IMG/VR virus record: IMGVR_UViG_3300021599_000181
Coordinates: 1 to 23,058 of that record
Strand: one strand, 5' to 3'
DNA: 23,058 bases
Source of the DNA: a virus
The notes below the pieces were generated by a model. It was not told the DNA's origin. It made no database searches and worked only from the letters and a program-made list of their open reading frames with translations. Below are positions 1,279 through 22,736 of this stretch, one piece after another (within the stretch, counting starts at the first letter, position 1; every line of letters starts with the position of its first letter). The position numbers and the translations under genes were made by a program.

Positions 1279-2229
1279 GTGAGCAAAAGAAATAAGATAG
1301 CTACCGTACTGGATGAATACTACCAATCACTAGACTTTAAAAGGCTTGGTCCTCGTACCCAGTACGACTACAAGTACTGCCTGAACACTATCCTTGATAC
1401 CGTGGTGGATCGTGCACGGATAGGACTGATGTACTTCGGCACACTCAATACCCCAAAGGCACAGAAGGCATACGATCAGTGGGCAGAACGGGGTATCTCT
1501 TTCGCTAACCACACCCAAGCTGTAGCCAGTAAGTTCTTTAACTACGCAATCCAAAGGGGATATGCTGACTCAAATCCCTTCAGGAACCTATCTAAAAAGC
1601 CCTACAAGCCCCGCAAAGTAGTGTGGACTAGGGGGGATATCAACCTCTTCTTACAAACCGCTTATAGCCAATTTAAATGGCGCTCTATCGGACTGATAGT
1701 ACAGATGTCCTTTGAGTGGTGCCAAAGGCTAGGCGATATGCGTACCCTGAAGTGGGGGAATCTTGACTTGGATAGTGGGGTATTGTACCTAGAGCAATCC
1801 AAACGTAGGAGCAGGGTAGAACTACCGATCTCGGATGATCTGCTGGCAATGCTCAAGCAACAGAAGGAAGAGGTGGGTAACCAGCCGTATGTTGCACCGT
1901 ACTGTGGCAATCTTGTGTACACACCGAGGTACTACGGCAAGATTGAATTCAGCACTGTGGGCAGGGAGATCATGCAGGCAGCAGGACTGCCCTCGGATCT
2001 GTGGCTCATGGACATGCGCCGTACTGGCACGACTGAGATGGTCGATGCCGGGGTTCCCCTGACCAACATCATGATGGTCACTGGGCATGCTTCCCCAGCC
2101 AGTCTCAAACCGTACATAAAGAATACCCTTACAGGTGCTAGGGTTGCATTGACAGCCCGTCAGAACCATGATAGCCTACTGCCAAGGCGCACCGGGGGTG
2201 AGGTATATGCTGGTGAACCTTTAACCTGA
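1279..2229 (+). CDS. int: Tyrosine recombinase / phage integrase
   Basis: 316 residues from a GTG start. Family: tyrosine site-specific recombinases, which cut and rejoin attP and attB through a 3'-phosphotyrosine. The N-terminal third (to about residue 100) is the helical core-binding region. The catalytic domain shows Arg150 (CQRLGDMRTL), Lys175 in the beta hairpin (LEQSKRRSRVELP), the box II segment MDMRRT with Arg247, His270 in TGH and the likely nucleophile Tyr279 (LKPYIKNT). The box II His is replaced by Met244, a position that varies among phage integrases. The start has only a weak ribosome site and lies 2 bp after the previous stop, so coupling is likely. No intergenic space for attP exists on either side. 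Confidence 0.93.
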   Translation: MSKRNKIATVLDEYYQSLDFKRLGPRTQYDYKYCLNTILDTVVDRARIGLMYFGTLNTPKAQKAYDQWAERGISFANHTQAVASKFFNYAIQRGYADSNPFRNLSKKPYKPRKVVWTRGDINLFLQTAYSQFKWRSIGLIVQMSFEWCQRLGDMRTLKWGNLDLDSGVLYLEQSKRRSRVELPISDDLLAMLKQQKEEVGNQPYVAPYCGNLVYTPRYYGKIEFSTVGREIMQAAGLPSDLWLMDMRRTGTTEMVDAGVPLTNIMMVTGHASPASLKPYIKNTLTGARVALTARQNHDSLLPRRTGGEVYAGEPLT

Positions 2230-2240
2230 AAGGAAAAACT

Positions 2241-2495
2241 ATGACTGAAGATGTAAAAGAAGAAGCTACAACAACAACAAAGGCACAGCCAACCACACTG
2301 AAACTTCCCATCGGGGAGATCACATTTTTTGTGGATGGATTTAAGTATCAATACAAACCGCAGCCCGATATGACTGTCAAAGAACTTAATGACATGATGC
2401 TGATGTTTGTAAGTGCAGCTACAAACCCAGTGAACTGGGATATCGAAAGCTGGATTAAGAACAACAACTTGCTTCGTCACTTTACTAAAGCATGA
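2241..2495 (+). CDS. Hypothetical protein
   Basis: 84 residues, with an AAAGGAAAA ribosome site just upstream. A Thr/Ala-rich disordered N-terminus (about 1-20) is followed by a compact domain rich in aromatic residues (ITFFVDGFKYQYKP) and a C-terminal helix. No known family is recognised. The stop overlaps the glycosyltransferase start (ATGA at 2492-2495), so the two are probably translated together. Confidence 0.65.
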   Translation: MTEDVKEEATTTTKAQPTTLKLPIGEITFFVDGFKYQYKPQPDMTVKELNDMMLMFVSAATNPVNWDIESWIKNNNLLRHFTKA

Positions 2496-3109
2496 TTGTT
2501 GCCTCCGTCTTAAAAACCGGAGGAGAATACAGTCCCTGCCATGTCTACAACTTACGTGACATGTGCAGGGATTTTTTACCTACGCACACATTCGTATGTC
2601 TTACGGACATACACCTAAGCAATTGCGAATACATCCCTCTAGTACACAACTGGAAGGGATGGTGGTCAAAGCTTGAACTCTTTAAGATAGAAGAGCCATG
2701 CTTGTACTTCGATCTAGACACCATCTTAGTGAATGACTGCACCAGTTTGGTGCATGCAGCACAGTCTAAAGACTTCGTCATCCTCCGTGATTTCTATCGT
2801 GGGTACACACTGACCCCTGTCAATCCAAAGGCAATGGGTTCAGGCATGATGTACTGGAGCAAGTCTGTAAAGTTTGTGTACGACTTGTACACACAATGTA
2901 CATACGACTTCTACGGTGACCAAGACTTCCTTGAGTACGCACTGCAAGACTATGAAGTACACTACTGGCAAGACATATGCACCGGTGTAGTATCTTACAA
3001 AGCCCACGACAGACATCTTGGAATACAGCCTACAGATAAAGTCATCTGTTTTCATGGACACCCTAGACCTTGGGAGCAAACAAAAATTGAGTACCCATTC
3101 AAACTTTAG
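2492..3109 (+). CDS. GT-A fold glycosyltransferase (GT8-like)
   Basis: 205 residues. A typical DxD metal and sugar-nucleotide motif lies at Asp74-Leu-Asp76 (LYFDLDTILV), after a WWSKLELF segment, as in GT8-like and related phage glycosyltransferases. A substrate-loop-like segment follows (AMGSGMMYW, about 114-122), then GDQDFLEYAL (142-151) and a C-terminal CFHGHPRPWE with His188 and His190, which often complete metal binding in GT-A enzymes. It would transfer a sugar to an unknown acceptor: phage DNA base, a virion protein or a host surface glycan. Its place between integrase and primase, far from the structural arm, slightly favours DNA or host modification. Donor and acceptor cannot be read from sequence. 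Confidence 0.78.
   Translation: MIVASVLKTGGEYSPCHVYNLRDMCRDFLPTHTFVCLTDIHLSNCEYIPLVHNWKGWWSKLELFKIEEPCLYFDLDTILVNDCTSLVHAAQSKDFVILRDFYRGYTLTPVNPKAMGSGMMYWSKSVKFVYDLYTQCTYDFYGDQDFLEYALQDYEVHYWQDICTGVVSYKAHDRHLGIQPTDKVICFHGHPRPWEQTKIEYPFKL
3072..3076 (+). promoter_or_regulatory. Ribosome binding site deciding the DUF1289 TTG start
   Basis: GGGAG lies 10 bases upstream of the TTG at 3087, inside the end of the glycosyltransferase gene. The in-frame ATGs at 3018 and 3054 have no comparable site and would add residues unlike the family, so this site favours the TTG. Confidence 0.4.
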
Positions 3110-5294: not shown

Positions 5295-5545
5295 CAGATG
5301 CAAAAATAATTGTGTCAAAAGGCAAAGTAAAACTTTTATCCGGCCCGGAATACGCACAGGAAAATAAATTGTTATGCAAGATTAAAGACACGGGCAATGG
5401 ATTCATTGCAAAGTTTCCGTCTTGGATATCATCACATCAAGATAATTACATTTGTATGGATTATTCAGAAGCAGAATATCTTGTAGCCGGACTAACCGAA
5501 TTAATGAAACAATGGAATAACAACGATGCAAGTTCTAATACTTGA
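5291..5545 (+). CDS. Small hypothetical protein between helicase and polymerase
   Basis: 84 residues, starting within the helicase stop and overlapping the polymerase start by 20 bp. The mixed alpha/beta sequence has paired Trp/Tyr residues (FPSWISSHQDNYICMDY) and a final amphipathic helix. I recognise no family. Its tight coupling on both sides suggests a replication accessory role, but nothing in the sequence proves it. Confidence 0.6.
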   Translation: MTDAKIIVSKGKVKLLSGPEYAQENKLLCKIKDTGNGFIAKFPSWISSHQDNYICMDYSEAEYLVAGLTELMKQWNNNDASSNT

Positions 5546-7571
5546 TGTAGAAAATACTGTAACTAATCGGGACGGTAAGAAACACTTAGACCCGTTTGAG
5601 ACTGGCAATAGTTTGGTTATGATTGGGTGTAAGTTTGTTGGTGATGAAGACACGTACATTGCAACCTTTGATCACGCAGATGTACCACCAACAAAGAATG
5701 GCAGGGATGTAATACAAGACTACCTTGACTCTGCTGATGTACTGGTAGGTCACAACCTAGCCCACGATTTGCCTTGGCTGTGGGAGTCAGGATTTAATTA
5801 CAAGGGCAAAGTGTTTGATACCATGCTGGCAGAGTACGTAATGCAACGTGGTAACAAGATGCCATTAAACCTTAGTGCTGTAGCTGAAAGATATAAGTGT
5901 GACGTGCAAAAACAAACTACCTTGGACACATACTTCAAGAACAATGTTTCTACAAGGGACATACCACACGCTGAACTGTCGGAATATTTACAGCACGATA
6001 TTGGAGCCACCGAGGGAGTATATCAGGCACTACATGCTCGCCTGCAGACAGCGAAGGATGCGGGTTTACAATCGACAATTGAACTTACTAATGAAGTCTG
6101 CTACGTCCTAGCACGTATCTATTGCACAGGATTCAGGATAGACACTGATCAATTGTCCTCTGTAAAAGAGGAGTTTGAATCAGAAAAATCTGCCATAGAA
6201 AATAGATTACAGAAGATGGTATCGGATCTGATGGGAGATACACCTATCAATCTGAATAGTCCAGAGCAATTGTCATGGGTTATTTATAGCCGTAAACCCA
6301 AAGACAAAAACCAATGGGCTGCTGCAGTCACACCTAACATGACAGATGCTGATTTTAAAAATGCTGTAAAGCAGCACTTCACTACGGTGTATAAGACCAA
6401 GGCAGAGAAGTGCCCGGATTGTGACGGGGCTGGTAGTAAACACAAAAAGAAAAAAGATGGAACCGACTTCAAGAAAGCTACTAAGTGTGGTACTTGCGGA
6501 GGCCAAGGCTATTTATTTAAAGCAACTAAAGACATGGCTGGTCTTAGGTTCACGGCACCCGGGGTCAAGTGGGCGAGTGCTAATGGTTTTGCCACTGCCA
6601 AAGAGAACCTTGAGATTTTGGAGCGAGTGGCAAAGTCCAAAGGAATGACAGTTGCCGAAGAGTTTCTTAGTAGTGTTAAGCGACTGTCTGCCTTAGATAG
6701 TTATCTATCTAACTTTGTAGATGGCATTCTAACATTTAAGAAGTTAGATGGTATGCTTCATGTTAGATTGAACCAGCACATCACAGCTACTGGCAGATTC
6801 AGTGGCAGTAATCCAAACATGCAGAACATGCCACGTGGCGGTACGTTCCCAGTCAAGCGAGTGTTTGTGTCTAGATTTAATAATGGTAAGGTTATGGAGG
6901 CAGATTTTGCCCAGCTAGAATTTAGGGTAGCTGCCTTCCTGTCCCAAGATCCTGTGGCTATGAAAGAGGTAACGGAAGGATTCGATGTACACTCGTATAC
7001 GGCGAAGATTATTACGGACGCTGGGCAGACAACGTCTAGGCAGGAAGCTAAGGCGCATACTTTTGCGCCTCTCTACGGAGCCACTGGATACGGTAGAACC
7101 CCAGCAGAAGCAGCCTACTACCAGCACTTCATGGAAAAATATAAAGGGGTAGCTGCGTGGCATAAGGTGTTGGCTAAACAGGCACTGGGATACAGGATGG
7201 TCAAGATCCCCAGTGGCAGGGAGTATTCGTTCCCGAATGTCCAGCGCAGGAGGGATGGTACAGTAACAAACTTCACAGCCATTAAGAACTATCCGGTGCA
7301 GGGGTTTGCCACTGCAGACATCGTACCCTTGGTTCTTGTGGAGATTTACAATAAGCTTGACGGGATGCATTCAGTGGTGGTAAATTCAGTACACGATTCA
7401 ATCGTGATAGACGTTCACCCTGACGAAGAAAAGGAAGTGCTTCTCATTATTGAGAGTGTACAAAATGAGATACACAACCTGATTAAGAAACGATGGAACA
7501 TTGAAATGAATGTGCCACTGTTGCTTGAAGCTAAGTTAGGTTTAAATTGGTTAGATCAGAAAGCTGCTTAA
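5526..7571 (+). CDS. Family A DNA polymerase with 3'-5' exonuclease and DnaJ-type zinc insert
   Basis: 681 residues. The proofreading exonuclease shows Asp7/Glu9 (LDVENT), Asn77 and Asp81 (VGHNLAHDLPW), Asp98 and Tyr154/Asp158 (YLQHD). Between it and the polymerase domain lies a zinc insert at 296-328: two exact CxxCxGxG motifs (Cys296/299 and Cys321/324) around a Lys-rich linker, as in the DnaJ central domain. The polymerase core shows TATGRFSGSNPNMQNMP (about 420-436), motif A with Asp460 and QLE-x-R, motif B with Arg505, Lys509, Phe513 and Tyr517-Gly, and motif C His623-Asp624. Phe513 equals E. coli Pol I Phe762. This zinc insert is a known marker of HMO-2011-type phage polymerases. The start overlaps the previous gene by 20 bp; the next gene follows after 15 bp. 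Confidence 0.95.
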   Translation: MQVLILDVENTVTNRDGKKHLDPFETGNSLVMIGCKFVGDEDTYIATFDHADVPPTKNGRDVIQDYLDSADVLVGHNLAHDLPWLWESGFNYKGKVFDTMLAEYVMQRGNKMPLNLSAVAERYKCDVQKQTTLDTYFKNNVSTRDIPHAELSEYLQHDIGATEGVYQALHARLQTAKDAGLQSTIELTNEVCYVLARIYCTGFRIDTDQLSSVKEEFESEKSAIENRLQKMVSDLMGDTPINLNSPEQLSWVIYSRKPKDKNQWAAAVTPNMTDADFKNAVKQHFTTVYKTKAEKCPDCDGAGSKHKKKKDGTDFKKATKCGTCGGQGYLFKATKDMAGLRFTAPGVKWASANGFATAKENLEILERVAKSKGMTVAEEFLSSVKRLSALDSYLSNFVDGILTFKKLDGMLHVRLNQHITATGRFSGSNPNMQNMPRGGTFPVKRVFVSRFNNGKVMEADFAQLEFRVAAFLSQDPVAMKEVTEGFDVHSYTAKIITDAGQTTSRQEAKAHTFAPLYGATGYGRTPAEAAYYQHFMEKYKGVAAWHKVLAKQALGYRMVKIPSGREYSFPNVQRRRDGTVTNFTAIKNYPVQGFATADIVPLVLVEIYNKLDGMHSVVVNSVHDSIVIDVHPDEEKEVLLIIESVQNEIHNLIKKRWNIEMNVPLLLEAKLGLNWLDQKAA

Positions 7572-10644: not shown

Positions 10645-11075
10645 CAGTAAAGAAAAGGTTTAGTAAAGACCTACACCAAGAGAATGACACACTTGCTAGA
10701 GCAGCGGGTAAAAGGTATTGGGGTAGTTTTGGTTATACGGTTGAGGATAATCCAGACCGCTACGGCGCAGATCTTATTGTAAATACGGGGTGGGAAGTGT
10801 TTTACTCAGAGGTCGAGATCAAGCGGGTGTGGTCTGGACCCACTTTCCAGTACGACACATTGCAAATACCAGCACGTAAAAAGAAATTTACTGAACTGGA
10901 TATGCCGTGTGTGTTTTTAGTTATAAACAAAGAACAAACGCATGCATTTGTTTGTGGCACTCAAGCTCTGTTGGATTCGCCGTTAGTTGAGGTTCCAAAC
11001 AAATACGTGTATAGTGGAGAAATGTTTTATCAAGTACCGATCAATACTCTTTTGTACGTTACCATACCATGCTAA
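10641..11075 (+). CDS. Putative PD-(D/E)XK fold protein (nuclease-like), unknown function
   Basis: 144 residues. The pattern YGADLIV (Asp44) then strand YSEVEIK (Glu59-x-Lys61) followed by a basic loop resembles the D and ExK parts of a restriction-endonuclease fold. A conserved-looking segment (TLQIPARKKKF) and a strand CVFLVINKEQTHAFVC follow, the latter like the strand after the active site in small PD-(D/E)XK proteins. The fold call is inference from motif spacing only; DNA target and function are unknown. Its end overlaps the ClpP-like gene by 7 bp. Confidence 0.5.
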   Translation: MTVKKRFSKDLHQENDTLARAAGKRYWGSFGYTVEDNPDRYGADLIVNTGWEVFYSEVEIKRVWSGPTFQYDTLQIPARKKKFTELDMPCVFLVINKEQTHAFVCGTQALLDSPLVEVPNKYVYSGEMFYQVPINTLLYVTIPC

Positions 11076-11659
11076 ATATAAAACAGGATATAGAAGAACA
11101 AGCAGATCCATATGCAGGGTTAGGTGCAGCCGATGTCATTGATCGTGGCATACTGGATTCTAATTCGTATGTGCTCAGTGGCATGATTGATTCTGATTCT
11201 GTTGATGCCGCTATTCGCTGGTTGATATTTGAAAATAATAAACCCAGCCACCATACGCTGACAATGTATGTCAATTCCATGGGCGGTTATTTAGATGATG
11301 CATTCTGCCTCATCGACATGATGCGATACACCAAGCACAACATCCGTACTGTTGGTGTTGGCAATGTCATGTCTGCAGCTTTCTTAATATTTTCAAGTGG
11401 CACAAAAGGACTTCGCTTTATAGGCAAGAATGCCAACACAATGTCCCACCAGTTTTCTGACTGTGTTGACGGTAAGCACCATGACATAAAGTCGTACATG
11501 AAATCAGCAGAGTACACTAATCAAAGAATGATTAATCTTTTAAGAGACAACACAGGATTAGATGCATCAACAATACGGCGTAAGCTTTTGCCACCCAGTG
11601 ACGTGTGGTTAACGCCAGATGAGTTAATTGAATTGAAAGTGGCAGACCATGTTCTATAG
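11069..11659 (+). CDS. ClpP-like serine protease
   Basis: 196 residues, the length of bacterial ClpP. It has the oxyanion-loop motif YVNSMGGYLDDA (ClpP: NSPGG), the nucleophile Ser102 in GNVMSAAFLIFSSG, His127 in NTMSHQF and Asp178 in PPSDVWLTPDEL, which aligns with the ClpP catalytic Asp. The complete Ser-His-Asp triad suggests an active peptidase. Phage ClpP-like enzymes often mature the prohead next to the major capsid gene; here the gene sits in the replication arm, so a role in host-protein turnover, or using host ClpX/ClpA, is possible. A partner ATPase is not encoded in the window. Confidence 0.88.
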   Translation: MLNIKQDIEEQADPYAGLGAADVIDRGILDSNSYVLSGMIDSDSVDAAIRWLIFENNKPSHHTLTMYVNSMGGYLDDAFCLIDMMRYTKHNIRTVGVGNVMSAAFLIFSSGTKGLRFIGKNANTMSHQFSDCVDGKHHDIKSYMKSAEYTNQRMINLLRDNTGLDASTIRRKLLPPSDVWLTPDELIELKVADHVL

Positions 11660-14647: not shown

Positions 14648-14723
14648 GCTGACATAGCTCAGTTGGTAGAGCAACTGATTTGTAATCAGTAGGTCGTGGG
14701 TTCAAGTCCTACTGTCAGCACCA
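14648..14723 (+). tRNA. tRNA-Thr(UGU) with encoded CCA
   Basis: The cloverleaf reads clearly. Acceptor GCTGACA (14648-14654) pairs with TGTCAGC (14713-14719). The D arm GCTCAGTTGGTAGAGC, anticodon arm ACTGA-TTTGTAA-TCAGT with anticodon TGT, and T arm with GGTTCAAGTCC follow. The discriminator A14720 and CCA 14721-14723 are encoded. It decodes ACA threonine codons. It stands between the two converging gene arms. Confidence 0.96.
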
Positions 14724-17973: not shown

Positions 17974-19383
17974 TTACCTTACAGGTTGGAAACTAGTTCC
18001 GTTCCAAATTTTACTTACGCCATTACTGTCTACGTAAGTCTCACCGGATACAAGTTTAGATCCGTCAATCTTTCCTTCTTTTGTTTTTGGTATAGGTTTA
18101 CCTTTACCGGCAGCAGTTCCCGGAAGTGCTTGAGGTCTTGCTGCTTGTCTGCGCTCATTAAATTGATAGGCTTTATTGTACGCATCAATAGCCCTTTGTT
18201 TTTCTTCAGTAGATAAATGATCCATAGCATTTACTTGCGAAGAAAACTTTTCTGGAGAAACAAATTCAGCATTCTCTGTACGTGCTGGTGTCTTTCCTTG
18301 AGCAGCATTTTTCCACGATACAATTCTATTATTTTCTATCTCAGCATATATTGACAATGCTCTTTTTGCTGCTTCTCCCGCAGGACCGCCTGTAATGTTT
18401 CCTTTTTCATCAATCAAACCATTTGCAAAAGCTGCATCTCTAATGATTTTATTTTTATGATCGATGTAAGAACCAATAGCATCCGCATCTCCAATAATTG
18501 GAACATAGTCATTCTTGCTGGGATCAAATCTAATTACACCCTTTTGAACAAGAATATCTAGACCGTTCTTAAGTGAACGATCAAAGATAGTATTGATGTT
18601 GCCAAAGGTTAAGTCGCCTTTCTTTTCAGGATCGACCATGTTATCTACTACAATCATGGCCCGAAGCTTTGAAAGACTTCTTTGTACTTCAGGATTCTTT
18701 AATGCTTGTCCAACTGCTCTGTTGTAATCATCAGACCCTTGCTCTAAGCCTTGTGTTGCTCTGGCTAAGTGATCACGGAATTTTGCTTTAACTGCAGCAT
18801 CAGATTCTGGACTTGAGAAAGCAGTTAAATCTAATCGACCTACGGGTTTAAACTCAGCAATCTTATCAAATTTATTTTTGTACAGATCGTCAATAGACAC
18901 TCCTGATGCTTTTGCAAACTTCTCACGTGTCTCTGCCCCAGCACGTGTTGGTAAACCAAAGGCACCTTTTTCTACTTCTTCTGTGGGCATTGCTTCTGCC
19001 CCGGGTTTTAGTGTGGTCAGTCTACCTACTACATCTTGCACTGTGCCTTTGTAATCTTTTCCGGGAGTAAACAGACCAGCAGTCTGTTCGTCTGTTAAAT
19101 TGGCACCGTCTTTCTTTAAGTTAGTGATGACAGTATCTGCCTGTCCTGACTCTAAGATACCTGCAATTTGTGTTTCAGTAAGACGATTGCCCGACAGTGC
19201 TTGCAGATCTTTGGCCTGTTGACGGAGTTCATCACGGCGAGTATTGGCTTCTTCTAAAGACTTCTCACGCTTACGCAATAGATAATTCATCCGTGTGCTT
19301 ACGGTATCACGGATCTCTTTATCTTTTTCTTCTATTACTTCGGTTGCACCTTTGGCAAACCCAGTTACAAATGCGGTTAGCAT
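17974..19383 (-). CDS. 469-aa putative virion (ejection-associated) protein
   Basis: 469 residues with a strong GGAGG site before its ATG, sharing one base with the previous stop (TAATG). Residues 17-65 form a highly charged helix (EEKDKEIRDTVS then RKREKSLEEANTRRDELRQQ) typical of a coiled coil. A long polar helical region follows, and a C-terminal strand-rich tail (GKIDGSKLVSGETYVDSNGV) resembles small beta modules at protein ends. No enzyme motif. A structural or ejection role fits its position just before the 1069-aa protein. Confidence 0.65.
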   Translation of the reverse strand: MLTAFVTGFAKGATEVIEEKDKEIRDTVSTRMNYLLRKREKSLEEANTRRDELRQQAKDLQALSGNRLTETQIAGILESGQADTVITNLKKDGANLTDEQTAGLFTPGKDYKGTVQDVVGRLTTLKPGAEAMPTEEVEKGAFGLPTRAGAETREKFAKASGVSIDDLYKNKFDKIAEFKPVGRLDLTAFSSPESDAAVKAKFRDHLARATQGLEQGSDDYNRAVGQALKNPEVQRSLSKLRAMIVVDNMVDPEKKGDLTFGNINTIFDRSLKNGLDILVQKGVIRFDPSKNDYVPIIGDADAIGSYIDHKNKIIRDAAFANGLIDEKGNITGGPAGEAAKRALSIYAEIENNRIVSWKNAAQGKTPARTENAEFVSPEKFSSQVNAMDHLSTEEKQRAIDAYNKAYQFNERRQAARPQALPGTAAGKGKPIPKTKEGKIDGSKLVSGETYVDSNGVSKIWNGTSFQPVR

Positions 19384-19868
19384 TATTCCTCCATCATCCG
19401 TTTAGCCATTAATCCTTTACGCTCTACTTCCATCGGAGCAGGTGCTGGTGCCTGTGCTTCTTTAGAAATCTCACGGGCAATCTCTTTAGCAATCTCACGT
19501 GGCACACGTTTTTTAACAGCCTCTTTCTCATAAGATTCTATGTAGTCCACATTGCTTATATCACCAACATACATAATCATTTCACGAATTACAGGATTGA
19601 CAAGTACTGATATATCATAAGAATGAACACCGTTCATGACACCAGAGTTTAGAATCTGATCTGCCATAGCTTCTACAGATATACCAGTATCAAGTGCACT
19701 AATGATTGCACTTTCAACATCATCATCTGTCATGCGCTCAGTGTAGAAATCAATAACCTCTTCTATCTTAGAAAACTGAGGGGGATTCTCCCATGGATAA
19801 TTTCCGGGTTCGCCTGTTAAGGAAGAACCGGGAATAGGGGCAGTTAGAAACTTAGGATCAATTGCCAT
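19383..19868 (-). CDS. Conserved phage structural-arm protein starting MAIDPKFLTAPIPG
   Basis: 161 residues. The N-terminus DPKFLTAPIPGSSLTGEPGN then PWENPPQ is a recurrent start of a conserved hypothetical protein in marine tailed phages, usually within virion modules. The middle is helical with regular Asp/Glu (MTDDDVESAIISALDTGISV). The C-terminus is a charged helix plus an Ala-Pro linker (APAPAPMEVER) and ends MAKRMMEE. Probably a virion or assembly protein; exact role unknown. Overlaps the upstream gene by 11 bp. Confidence 0.65.
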   Translation of the reverse strand: MAIDPKFLTAPIPGSSLTGEPGNYPWENPPQFSKIEEVIDFYTERMTDDDVESAIISALDTGISVEAMADQILNSGVMNGVHSYDISVLVNPVIREMIMYVGDISNVDYIESYEKEAVKKRVPREIAKEIAREISKEAQAPAPAPMEVERKGLMAKRMMEE

Positions 19869-20055
19869 TTCTAATCTCCATTCGTTTCTGACGGATATCC
19901 ATTACATAGTTAGCCATACGCTCAATAATATCGTCTGATTTTTTAATTGGCGTTACAGAACTTTTAGGGCTAAGTAAACCTTTAGTTTTAACTTTAGGTT
20001 CTTGACCTGTGCGTTCTTCAATGACACGCTCTAGCTGTTTAATATATCGATTCAT
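19858..20055 (-). CDS. 65-aa hypothetical protein of the virion arm
   Basis: 65 residues with a GGGAGT ribosome site 6-7 bases before ATG (minus strand). Basic, helical ends (YIKQLERVIEERTG and ERMANYVMDIRQKRM) flank a Pro/Ser/Lys linker. It lies 1 bp after the stop of the large repeat protein and overlaps the next gene. No family recognised. Confidence 0.55.
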   Translation of the reverse strand: MNRYIKQLERVIEERTGQEPKVKTKGLLSPKSSVTPIKKSDDIIERMANYVMDIRQKRMEIRNGN

Positions 20056-20056
20056 T

Positions 20057-22252
20057 TTAGACTCCCTGCCCGTAGTCAGTAAACGAATTGTCTACCTCAT
20101 AAGCAATATCTGGTACGCCTGTACCAGCGACCCATACTAATTCACCCTGATAGTAGTAATTTCCAGAGGGATCAATGGCTGTGCCATCTGTGTAGTATGT
20201 CCATCCATATCCCGGATCATTTACAGTAAGACCACTAGTGTCCACTTGAACAGCACCACCACCACCTCTGCCTAGCTGTGCAATAGCACCAGCTTTAATA
20301 GTACCAAAGGCACTCTTCATTGCAGAGTAAGCATCGCCAGCAATTGCAGTCTTCTCCATAATCTTTGCAGAGACATTTCCAAGAGCTTCGTACATCTTGC
20401 CTTCTAATGCGAGCTTGGCTGCTTCTACTTGTCCTTGTTTTTGTAACACAGCAATCGCTACATAGTTTTCTCTGTTTTTATTATTCTCGCCAGATGTAAA
20501 TGCGTACTGAATATTATCACGGAAAACTTGCATCTGATTGTTATACTCAGCTAAACCTACTTGTAAAGCAGACTGTGCATTAATTTCATTGGCACGGTTA
20601 ATCGCTGCAGTGTTAGCTGTAGAAATCTCTCTACGCCATGCGGCATTGGATTGATCAATCACTAATCTATTTTGAGCATTAAATTGCTCACGTTGATTTT
20701 GTGATTCAGTATTAAATCTAGCTACAGTATTATACTGGTCAGCATTAAACTGCGACATAGCATTTGTTTGTGTTGCATTAAACTGCTGTACTTGTGTTGC
20801 AAGACCAGCAAAGAATTGTGTAACTTGATTCTGACTGGCAGCATTAAATTGTCTAGCAGCGTTTTCCGCAGCTTGATCTGACAATATGGCCTGCACATTC
20901 GATTGTGCTTTAAACATTTCTGCCTGCTGTGAATAGCTCAAGTTAGCCATGTCCATTTGCAAGAAAGCTTGAGCATTTGCTACAGCCGCTTGCTGACGAT
21001 TATTTAAGTTAGCAGTTTCAAGTGTGGCAATTTGAGCAGCATTTGCCATGACCAATGCTTGCCTATTATTTAGATTAGCCATGTCCATAGTCTGAGCAAG
21101 ACGGGCATTCTCTATTGCTATCTGTTGCTGGGCATTAAAGTTTTGATTGGCAATATCAGCAACCTTGGCTGCATTTAAAACACGAGTCTGAAAGTTTTGA
21201 TCAAACTCTTGTCCTAAAAACTGAGCACGTTGCTGAGCAGTGAGCATTGCCACTTGCTGTCTATTGGACAGATTCTGTAATCCCATCTGCTGGTATGTTT
21301 GAGCATCAGCAGAAGCAATCGGTAGTGCAGCTTCAAGTGTAGCTTGAATCATTGCTTGCCCAGCTAAACTAGAAGCCCCTAGCCCACGCTGTGCCAGTAC
21401 AGATGTGACATTACGTAGAGAAGCTGCAGCCCATGGCGGGGGACTGCCAGCTTCAAAGGTAGACATCAAGGTATTAAGTTGACCCTGCACAGTCATGTCT
21501 GCAGTTACAACACCTTGTGCTGCCTCTGCTTGCTGCAGTGCAGCTTCTACTGCAGTCCTATCGACAGCAGCACCGGAAATAATTTCCCCTGTCTGTACGC
21601 CCCGAATTGGTGCACCAGTGATCTGGGTAGCTGTACCCTCAGCAGCCTTAAGTGTTCCAAGGGCAGTGCTGGTAGGCTCTACTTGTGCGGCTTGAACTTG
21701 TGCCTGCTGACTTACTACGCCTTGAGCAGGCTGTAATTGAGATACCGTTCCAGACACGCTAGGAGCCGCTGCAGCAGCTTGCATTGTGGCTGCTGGGGTG
21801 GTGGTAGGGGCAGCAGCAGTAGCGGCTGTAGGAGCCTGTGCTGCAGTCACAGAGGCAGCTTGTGCTGGAGCTAGTTGTGTAGTTAGAACCTGATCTTCAG
21901 TGACCACATTCTGAGCAGGGGTAATGACAGGTGCCAAGGGTGACGTGGGCGTAGTCTGAGCCACCTGCTGAGACAGGGGAGTGATAGTACCCGTAGGTGT
22001 GGTTTGTGTGGCTGTGCTTGTGTTTACAAGTTCTACTTGCTCAGATGTAGGATCTACCTCTACCGCACCACCCTCTTGGTACATACGGACCATGCCGCCC
22101 CTAGCCATATATTTCTCAAGCACCGTAGTGTACTTACGTGACATGGCAGGGTCTGATTTTACAAACTCATCAAACATTTGCATTGGTCCATCATAGCCCA
22201 GTTTACGAGCTACGATTTCTTTTTGCTTCATATTAAATTCTTTAGTCGCCAT
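20057..22252 (-). CDS. 731-aa virion protein with 11-residue (hendecad) repeats
   Basis: 731 residues from ATG 22252, 1 bp after the lysozyme stop; an in-frame GTG at 22264 would add four residues but overlaps the lysozyme and has no ribosome site. An N-terminal domain of about 75 residues contains RGGMVRMYQEGG, a Gly-x-Val-x-Gly-Gly type motif seen in aquatic phage virion proteins. A long Ala/Thr/Pro/Gln linker follows (about 76-270). A helical region (about 327-565) shows exact 11-residue periodicity with Asn-Ala or Asn-Leu. The C-terminus is a Gly/Tyr-rich strand domain (about 660-731). No catalytic motif. It is probably a virion structural or ejection protein. Confidence 0.7.
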   Translation of the reverse strand: MATKEFNMKQKEIVARKLGYDGPMQMFDEFVKSDPAMSRKYTTVLEKYMARGGMVRMYQEGGAVEVDPTSEQVELVNTSTATQTTPTGTITPLSQQVAQTTPTSPLAPVITPAQNVVTEDQVLTTQLAPAQAASVTAAQAPTAATAAAPTTTPAATMQAAAAAPSVSGTVSQLQPAQGVVSQQAQVQAAQVEPTSTALGTLKAAEGTATQITGAPIRGVQTGEIISGAAVDRTAVEAALQQAEAAQGVVTADMTVQGQLNTLMSTFEAGSPPPWAAASLRNVTSVLAQRGLGASSLAGQAMIQATLEAALPIASADAQTYQQMGLQNLSNRQQVAMLTAQQRAQFLGQEFDQNFQTRVLNAAKVADIANQNFNAQQQIAIENARLAQTMDMANLNNRQALVMANAAQIATLETANLNNRQQAAVANAQAFLQMDMANLSYSQQAEMFKAQSNVQAILSDQAAENAARQFNAASQNQVTQFFAGLATQVQQFNATQTNAMSQFNADQYNTVARFNTESQNQREQFNAQNRLVIDQSNAAWRREISTANTAAINRANEINAQSALQVGLAEYNNQMQVFRDNIQYAFTSGENNKNRENYVAIAVLQKQGQVEAAKLALEGKMYEALGNVSAKIMEKTAIAGDAYSAMKSAFGTIKAGAIAQLGRGGGGAVQVDTSGLTVNDPGYGWTYYTDGTAIDPSGNYYYQGELVWVAGTGVPDIAYEVDNSFTDYGQGV
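20579..21274 (-). repeat. Coding tract for an 11-residue (33 bp) repeat in the 731-aa protein
   Basis: From residue 327 to 558 of the protein, Asn recurs at exact steps of 11: 327, 360, 371, 382, 393, 404, 415, 426, 437, 470, 492, 503, 514, 525, 536, 547, 558. The exceptions in register are 338, 349, 448, 459 and 481. The next residue is nearly always Ala, Leu or Phe. A 22-residue higher order (NLxNRQ at 327, 393, 415) is also visible. The DNA copies are diverged, so selection acts on the protein pattern. Confidence 0.85.
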
Positions 22253-22253
22253 A

Positions 22254-22736
22254 TTAATCGCCACTTAAATATAAGTTCATTTCGTCCTTGCGTCTTTTAA
22301 CAAGGCCCGGGAGTTCTTTACCACCAGCTTTAGTCCATTGCATGAATGCTTCTGCTGCTTCTCCAAACTCACCACGGTTGTGCTTCATTCTTATTGTAGA
22401 GCGTTGGAGATTGCCGAGGCCAACATTGAAAGAGAAGGAAACGAGGCTGTCAAAGCGAGACTGAGTAAGACCAGAAGGACACAGTCGTAATACACCTCGC
22501 TCAAACGAAGCCAAGTCACTGGATAGGATGTCATCAACTTCTGCCATGCTGAGGGTTCTATCCCACTCTGGGGGAATTGGTATACTTTTGCGTTCATTAA
22601 ATGGAACCTTTATGTGATTTGCATCTATTACGTGGCCTACGCCGATTGTCCACAATAAAGCAGGGCATCTGTAGCCACGAGTACGAACACCCTCGTGGTG
22701 CTTAATCATCTCTATACATTTTTTGGATACATTCAT
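22254..22736 (-). CDS. Endolysin, GH24 muramidase (T4 lysozyme family, R21 subtype)
   Basis: 160 residues. It cleaves the MurNAc-GlcNAc bond of peptidoglycan at lysis. Active-site pattern: Glu15 (HHEGVR), then 8 residues to Cys24 (YRCPALLW), then 5 residues to Thr30 (WTIGVGH). This is the E-8-D/C-5-T triad of phage 21-type endolysins, with Cys where T4 has Asp20. The C-terminal KRRKDEMNLYL matches the conserved family end (RR-x-x-E-x-x-L-Y). The N-terminus has no hydrophobic signal-anchor segment, so export depends on the holin rather than SAR release. The start overlaps the holin stop by ATGA. Confidence 0.93.
   Translation of the reverse strand: MNVSKKCIEMIKHHEGVRTRGYRCPALLWTIGVGHVIDANHIKVPFNERKSIPIPPEWDRTLSMAEVDDILSSDLASFERGVLRLCPSGLTQSRFDSLVSFSFNVGLGNLQRSTIRMKHNRGEFGEAAEAFMQWTKAGGKELPGLVKRRKDEMNLYLSGD

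Follow-up and report, generated by a model that had tools for sequence, protein, structure and literature searches.

Protein H of phage phiX174 forms a helical tube for DNA; the N-terminal part of the tube consists of 11-residue repeats, or hendecads (QKELTKMQLDN, QKEIAEMQNET, QKEIAGIQSAT), and the lumen is lined mainly by Asn, Gln and Arg (PMC7354561). The ejection genes of T7 and P22 follow one another as a small gp14/gp7, then gp15/gp20, then a larger gp16, and the known gp14-like proteins have 181-240 aa (PMC8954989). Helical ejection proteins are an established kind, since T7 gp14 (PMC11784390) and protein P2_38 of Peru-2 (PMC13320782) each form a two-helix hairpin in the opened tail. The needles of P22-like phages are rods with a whole number of repeats and of differing length between phages; their shaft is three-stranded and contains 11-16 heptads, the N-termini are conserved and the tips can be exchanged (PMC3741392).

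The window analysed here, a virus record of 23,058 bases in one contig, is a fragment of a marine podophage of the HMO-2011 type, as judged from its gene content and homologues. Its marker genes are a family-A DNA polymerase, a ribonucleotide reductase, a tyrosine integrase and a lysozyme. The integrase (1279-2229, plus strand) and a tRNA-Thr (TGT; 14648-14723, plus strand) suggest that this phage may integrate. Residues 290-332 of the polymerase (5526-7571, plus strand) contain a zinc motif of the DnaJ type, CXXCXGXG, which matches PF00684 at 5.6e-5, short of the curated cut-off. Inspection by eye gave a putative ClpP-type protease in the replication-side cluster (196 aa; 11069-11659, plus strand) and a putative glycosyltransferase (205 aa; 2492-3109, plus strand; LYFDLDTILVND). 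The minus strand carries a gene for a 731-aa protein with a long hendecad array, which heads a conserved cassette:

22254-22736, minus strand: phage lysozyme, directly upstream of the hendecad gene (PF00959, 1.2e-34)
20057-22252, minus strand: hendecad-rod gene with ATG start, whose 731-aa product is homologous to HMO-2011 phage1322_25
19858-20055, minus strand: 65-aa cassette gene
19383-19868, minus strand: 161-aa cassette gene, the most constant partner (matches in 173 loci)
17974-19383, minus strand: 469-aa gene, placed like gp15 in T7 or gp20 in P22
14755-17964, minus strand: 1069-aa gene, in the position of gp16

An in-frame GTG at 22264 is a possible alternative start of the hendecad gene, the product then having 735 aa. 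Every genome viewed showed the order hendecad gene, ~65, ~161, ~469 and ~1069 aa; apart from minor insertions and losses, it is maintained across pelagiphages, roseophages and phages of Vibrio, Aeromonas, Rhizobium and Pseudoalteromonas. At the position of the 1069-aa protein, one relative (L011) has a homologue with a match to 'internal virion protein' (PHROG 6651, 1.1e-9), and Slicky01 has a protein with a match to 'virion structural protein' (PHROG 30152, 2.1e-18). An AlphaFold2 model of the 1069-aa neighbour itself (mean pLDDT 59) gave PDB matches with no phage internal protein among them. The 161-aa neighbour (PIPGSSLTGEPGNYPWENPP) is the cassette member of widest conservation.

The repeat in the 731-aa protein is real, strong and conserved. 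The original prediction placed it at residues 327-558, which correspond exactly to 21274-20579 of the window, and the count of Asn at 17 of 22 positions spaced by 11 residues in this minus-strand protein was recovered as claimed. The residue that follows these Asn is Ala in ten cases, Leu in four, Thr in two and Phe in one, and the five phase positions without Asn are T338, E349, K448, D459 and F481. When the same 242 residues were shuffled 200,000 times, the mean Asn count in the best phase was 5.9 and the maximum 12; for whole-protein shuffles the maximum was 8. Autocorrelation of residue identity over residues 295-590, the check that had been proposed, gave z = 6.8 at lag 11, together with 9.0 at lag 22, 4.9 at lag 33 and 6.5 at lag 44, and all other lags were at or below 1.5. 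The N-terminal half of the tract is better seen as repeating every 22 residues, each unit pairing two dissimilar hendecads such as NAQAFLQMDMA and NLNNRQQAAVA, and in the C-terminal half every hendecad is similar to NATQTNAMSQF. Tandem Repeats Finder detected no DNA-level tandem repeat in the window; the 11-residue period thus lives at the protein level, and recent duplication is not the explanation for the pattern.

An AlphaFold2 model of the protein (single chain, 77 sequences) and the alignment of its relatives allow the following parts to be distinguished:

22100-22252, minus strand: conserved N-terminal helical domain, residues 1-51 (AlphaFold2)
21560-22099, minus strand: Pro/Thr/Ala/Gln-rich stretch mostly without predicted structure, residues 52-231 (AlphaFold2)
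21368-21490, minus strand: conserved VQGQL...PPPWAA...RGLGASS, residues 255-295
20354-21367, minus strand: nearly continuous predicted helix with short breaks at 393-396 and 472-473, residues 296-633 (AlphaFold2)
20549-21274, minus strand: array of 22 hendecads, 17 of them with a phase-0 Asn, residues 327-568
20060-20353, minus strand: variable C-terminal part, residues 634-731

The best-modelled part is residues 11-50, with a pLDDT of about 80-92. Residues 255-295 form two helices whose final turn, G-L-G-x-S-S, is found in 142 of 147 relatives. The continuous helix that had been expected was predicted with moderate confidence, nearly unbroken over residues 296-633; its pLDDT is about 46-84 by block, reaching about 70-84 over most of 470-600 and lying lower before, and a straight helix of this size, with a rise of 1.5 A per residue, would measure about 50 nm. 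The reading as a rod is thus well backed as far as prediction goes. Net charge is low in this protein. On a helical wheel that assigns 11 residues to 3 turns, two candidate hydrophobic seams appear in the N-terminal half of the rod, at about 113 and 318 degrees, flanking the Asn face, and one appears in the C-terminal half at about 273 degrees, made up of Phe (phase 10) and Val/Ile (phase 7); these seams are a hint only, their hydrophobic moments being not significant when the 11 positions are permuted. The proposal that Asn occupies a core position gained no support from this projection, where the phase-0 Asn instead flanks the hydrophobic seam and is not plainly core. Elsewhere in the family, the C-terminal part is rich in Gly and Ala, carries a Peptidase_S74 domain or holds a module of the CWVAREVYG type; this module (CWVAREVYG..DPRW..FR.W....AP.W) recurs at the C-termini of many members (for instance L082, L113, L128, L138 and L149).

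Relatives were found by tblastn in 27 phage records, comprising HMO-2011, the CRP-series roseophages, pelagiphages, Slicky01, Aeromonas phages MQM1 and 1233, Rhizobium and Sinorhizobium phages, Vibrio phage CHOED and one uncultured genome, and they are encoded in at least 550 stretches of IMG/VR. The 731-aa protein is similar over most of its length to the HMO-2011-type phage1322_25 family, with the same gene order; it belongs to the same family, but the length of the array and both ends differ. Family members have 460-1283 aa, and phage1322_25, CRP-1 gp35, CHOED_013 and HTVC115P gp47 are annotated solely as hypothetical proteins. A lag signal in homologues, whose absence would have counted against the original prediction, was present in 73 of 73 distinct relatives, the top lag being 22 in 58 of them and 11 in 15, and this peak holds down to about 28% identity.

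Array length was measured from a conserved Pro (P311, in ALPIA) to a conserved Asn (N536, in NxxW), a distance of 225 residues in the window protein and in most relatives. In all 149 resolved homologues, many of them sequences of shared ancestry, this distance equals 5 modulo 11 (148, 159, 170, 181, 214, 225 or 313 residues), the count covering the proteins that carry the two motifs and leaving aside six that are not anchored by them. The same holds for six genome-bin loci (214, 225, 247, 313, 423 and 533), so that ten distinct distances from 148 to 533 residues were observed with none off register. The tract between two fixed anchors thus changes length in whole hendecads only, from 13 to 48 units. 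Unequal recombination between repeats would by itself yield whole units. Even so, off-register insertions are absent across lineages that reach down to about 28% identity, which points to selection for register. The longest array, with 533 residues between anchors and about 80 nm if straight, lies in a 1258-aa relative (L289:674-4447) on a contig binned as Sphingobacteriales. Two other relatives (L023:4291-8043 and L083:7648-10929) have about 450-570 extra N-terminal residues, which in L023 include a Pro-Glu-rich repeat and weak EF-hand and dockerin matches (below curated cut-offs).

Searches with the window protein against Pfam, PHROGs, NCBIfam and PDB sequences returned no match, and a profile search against the PDB gave a chance match only. 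Comparison by hhalign with T7 gp14, P22 gp7, phiX174 H, SP6 gp35, P-SSP7 and phage 7-11 proteins gave nothing significant; for T7 gp14 and P22 gp7 the probability was 3.2% or less, in a test that does not recover the control pair T7 gp14 and P22 gp7 either. Within P22 gp7, the best local match falls on the GLGSTAT turn and spans only 8 columns, and scans for relatives of T7 gp14 and P22 gp7 recovered only close copies or nothing. A blastp match to H6/1 gp17 (7e-6) was discarded, as it was obtained without composition correction on an Asn/Gln/Ala-rich sequence, and a lag-22 signal in P-SSP7 gp15 faded under a stricter test (p 0.013). Structural comparison with the PDB by VIA-align returned only generic long helices (chemoreceptors, Z 4.7) and was uninformative. 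Foldseek against viral models gave four significant matches, two of them at 41% and 28% identity, all without a functional name.

We favor the view, with a probability of roughly 0.6, that the 731-aa protein belongs to the internal-virion (ejection) type in HMO-2011-like podophages, in the role of P22 gp7 or T7 gp14; it is probably a member of that class with a greatly lengthened helix. The suggestion of a part in DNA ejection is plausible from gene context, whereas the tape-like spacer offered beside it is unlikely, because the relatives are short-tailed phages. The domain plan would run from a small N-terminal domain through a flexible Pro/Ala/Gln-rich stretch and a helix-turn (GLGxSS)-helix to the very long whole-hendecad helix, followed in many relatives by a Gly/Ala-rich, weakly hydrophobic tail that might be suited to membrane contact. 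A 19-residue segment after the rod has a mean hydropathy of at least 1.0 in 64 of 141 members, near the values of 1.3-1.4 found in P22 gp7, T7 gp14 and phiX174 H; the window protein is without such a tail, its best 19-residue hydropathy being 0.81. We infer that the protein is present in the virion and would leave it before the DNA, that the helices would associate side by side and in register, and that, together with the products of the downstream genes, they may form part of a path across the envelope. A role in cell-wall contact would fit the upstream lysozyme and the LysM domain of a hendecad protein of Roseobacter phage CRP-235 (L178:1124-3655), which combines an N-terminal LysM (8.7e-11) with a C-terminal Peptidase_S74 (3e-9). 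A search of the literature found no virion proteomics papers on this phage group. The 161-aa neighbour, which is steadier in size, could itself be the gp14-like protein.

The main rival to an ejection role is a trimeric tail needle or central fibre like P22 gp26, its long shaft made by three hendecad helices wound together; we consider this unlikely, if worth serious attention, and judge in the same way its corollary of an N-terminal virion-binding domain with exchangeable C-terminal tips. The P22 needle gene lies directly ahead of the ejection genes, needles vary in length by whole units as the rod does, and the C-terminal half of the rod has a single candidate hydrophobic seam. Moreover, Peptidase_S74, which is usually a mark of trimeric fibres and in them couples trimerisation with self-cleavage (PMC11058221), was found with its S-D-x-x-x-K motif at the C-terminus in six members tested (L021, L030, CRP-3, CRP-738, CRP-235 and CRP-212). 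This domain is however not decisive, because it also sits on annotated ejection or injection proteins of Pseudoalteromonas phage H6/1, Salmonella phage 7-11 and Vibrio phage PVA1 (tblastn), including H6/1 gp17, which aligns to the P22 gp7 profile (hhalign E 4.4e-6); in phage 7-11 the annotated ejection gene gp020 stands in a run with gp021-024. A Pfam search found no Peptidase_S74 in the window protein, and no heptad signal was seen in it (lag 7, z -1.0). Nor do the Gly/Ala-rich tails that many members have resemble those of a needle, and the long stretch without predicted structure that follows the N-terminal domain would poorly fit a plug.

An internal head protein that is not ejected, serving as a scaffold or DNA-packing spacer, would agree with a cassette of internal-protein type and with the ability of Asn and Gln side chains to bind DNA bases (PMC7354561); nevertheless, the LysM and S74 domains of relatives point to cell-surface or ejected proteins, and we find this reading very improbable. 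The least probable account is that the rod is a surface-binding amphipathic helix, in which the 11-residue period would create one long lipid-binding face. Such 11-mer lipid-binding proteins are known among the apolipoproteins and synucleins, and the period, the low net charge and the Gly/Ala-rich tails agree with them; but the N-terminal half shows two candidate seams and not one lipid face, and these helices usually border the lipid face with Lys, of which residues 296-633 have only 7. As a special case of the ejection reading, the hendecad rods might form an alpha-helical barrel, its lumen ringed by Asn/Gln, that carries dsDNA across the envelope. This would be a convergent and much longer (22-80 nm) tailed-phage counterpart of the phiX174 H tube, with its length set in whole hendecads; we put this forward very tentatively and regard it as doubtful. 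If the rods make up a conduit, tubes of amide-rich hendecads would be a recurring solution for moving nucleic acid through proteins. The hendecad family offers a concrete candidate, a rod whose length between the fixed anchors strictly follows whole hendecads (13 to 48 units), and the natural length variants of the family make the role of the rod directly testable.

How the putative ejection protein compares with the known systems depends on the feature considered. The claim that no described phage protein has such a design was too strong: proteins with hendecad arrays have a precedent, so the design is not wholly new, and an amide-lined hendecad tube already exists in phiX174 H, with hendecads at residues 151-183. 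The two proteins are alike in being Asn/Gln-rich and in placing hendecads in a DNA-delivery protein (this role being putative for the window protein), and our autocorrelation test also detects the lag-11 signal of H (z 7.4 over 151-194). They differ in that H, whose helical tube spans residues 151-271, has only three hendecads followed by a kinked transition and heptads, is a decamer 17 nm long in an ssDNA microvirus, and has Gln at two phase positions, versus Asn at one in the window protein. With an hhalign probability of 0.6% or less and no match to the H family phrog_1471, the likeness would be one of design and is not shown to be one of descent. With the P22 gp7 / T7 gp14 class, the hendecad family shares the first position in an ejection-type cassette, a turn of the G-L-G-[ST] type (in P22 gp7 types), the Gly/Ala-rich tail of many members and, for some members, the S74 tail of the P22 gp7-like H6/1 gp17. 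Proteins of that class have about 200 aa, against 731 aa in the window protein and 460-1283 aa in its family, and no hendecad array was found in those tested. The P22 gp26 needle, encoded just before the ejection genes as the hendecad protein is, resembles it as a long rod with exchangeable ends and a whole-number repeat count that varies between phages; it is set apart, by its published description, in having heptads and not hendecads and a needle of 22-32 nm (PMC3741392).
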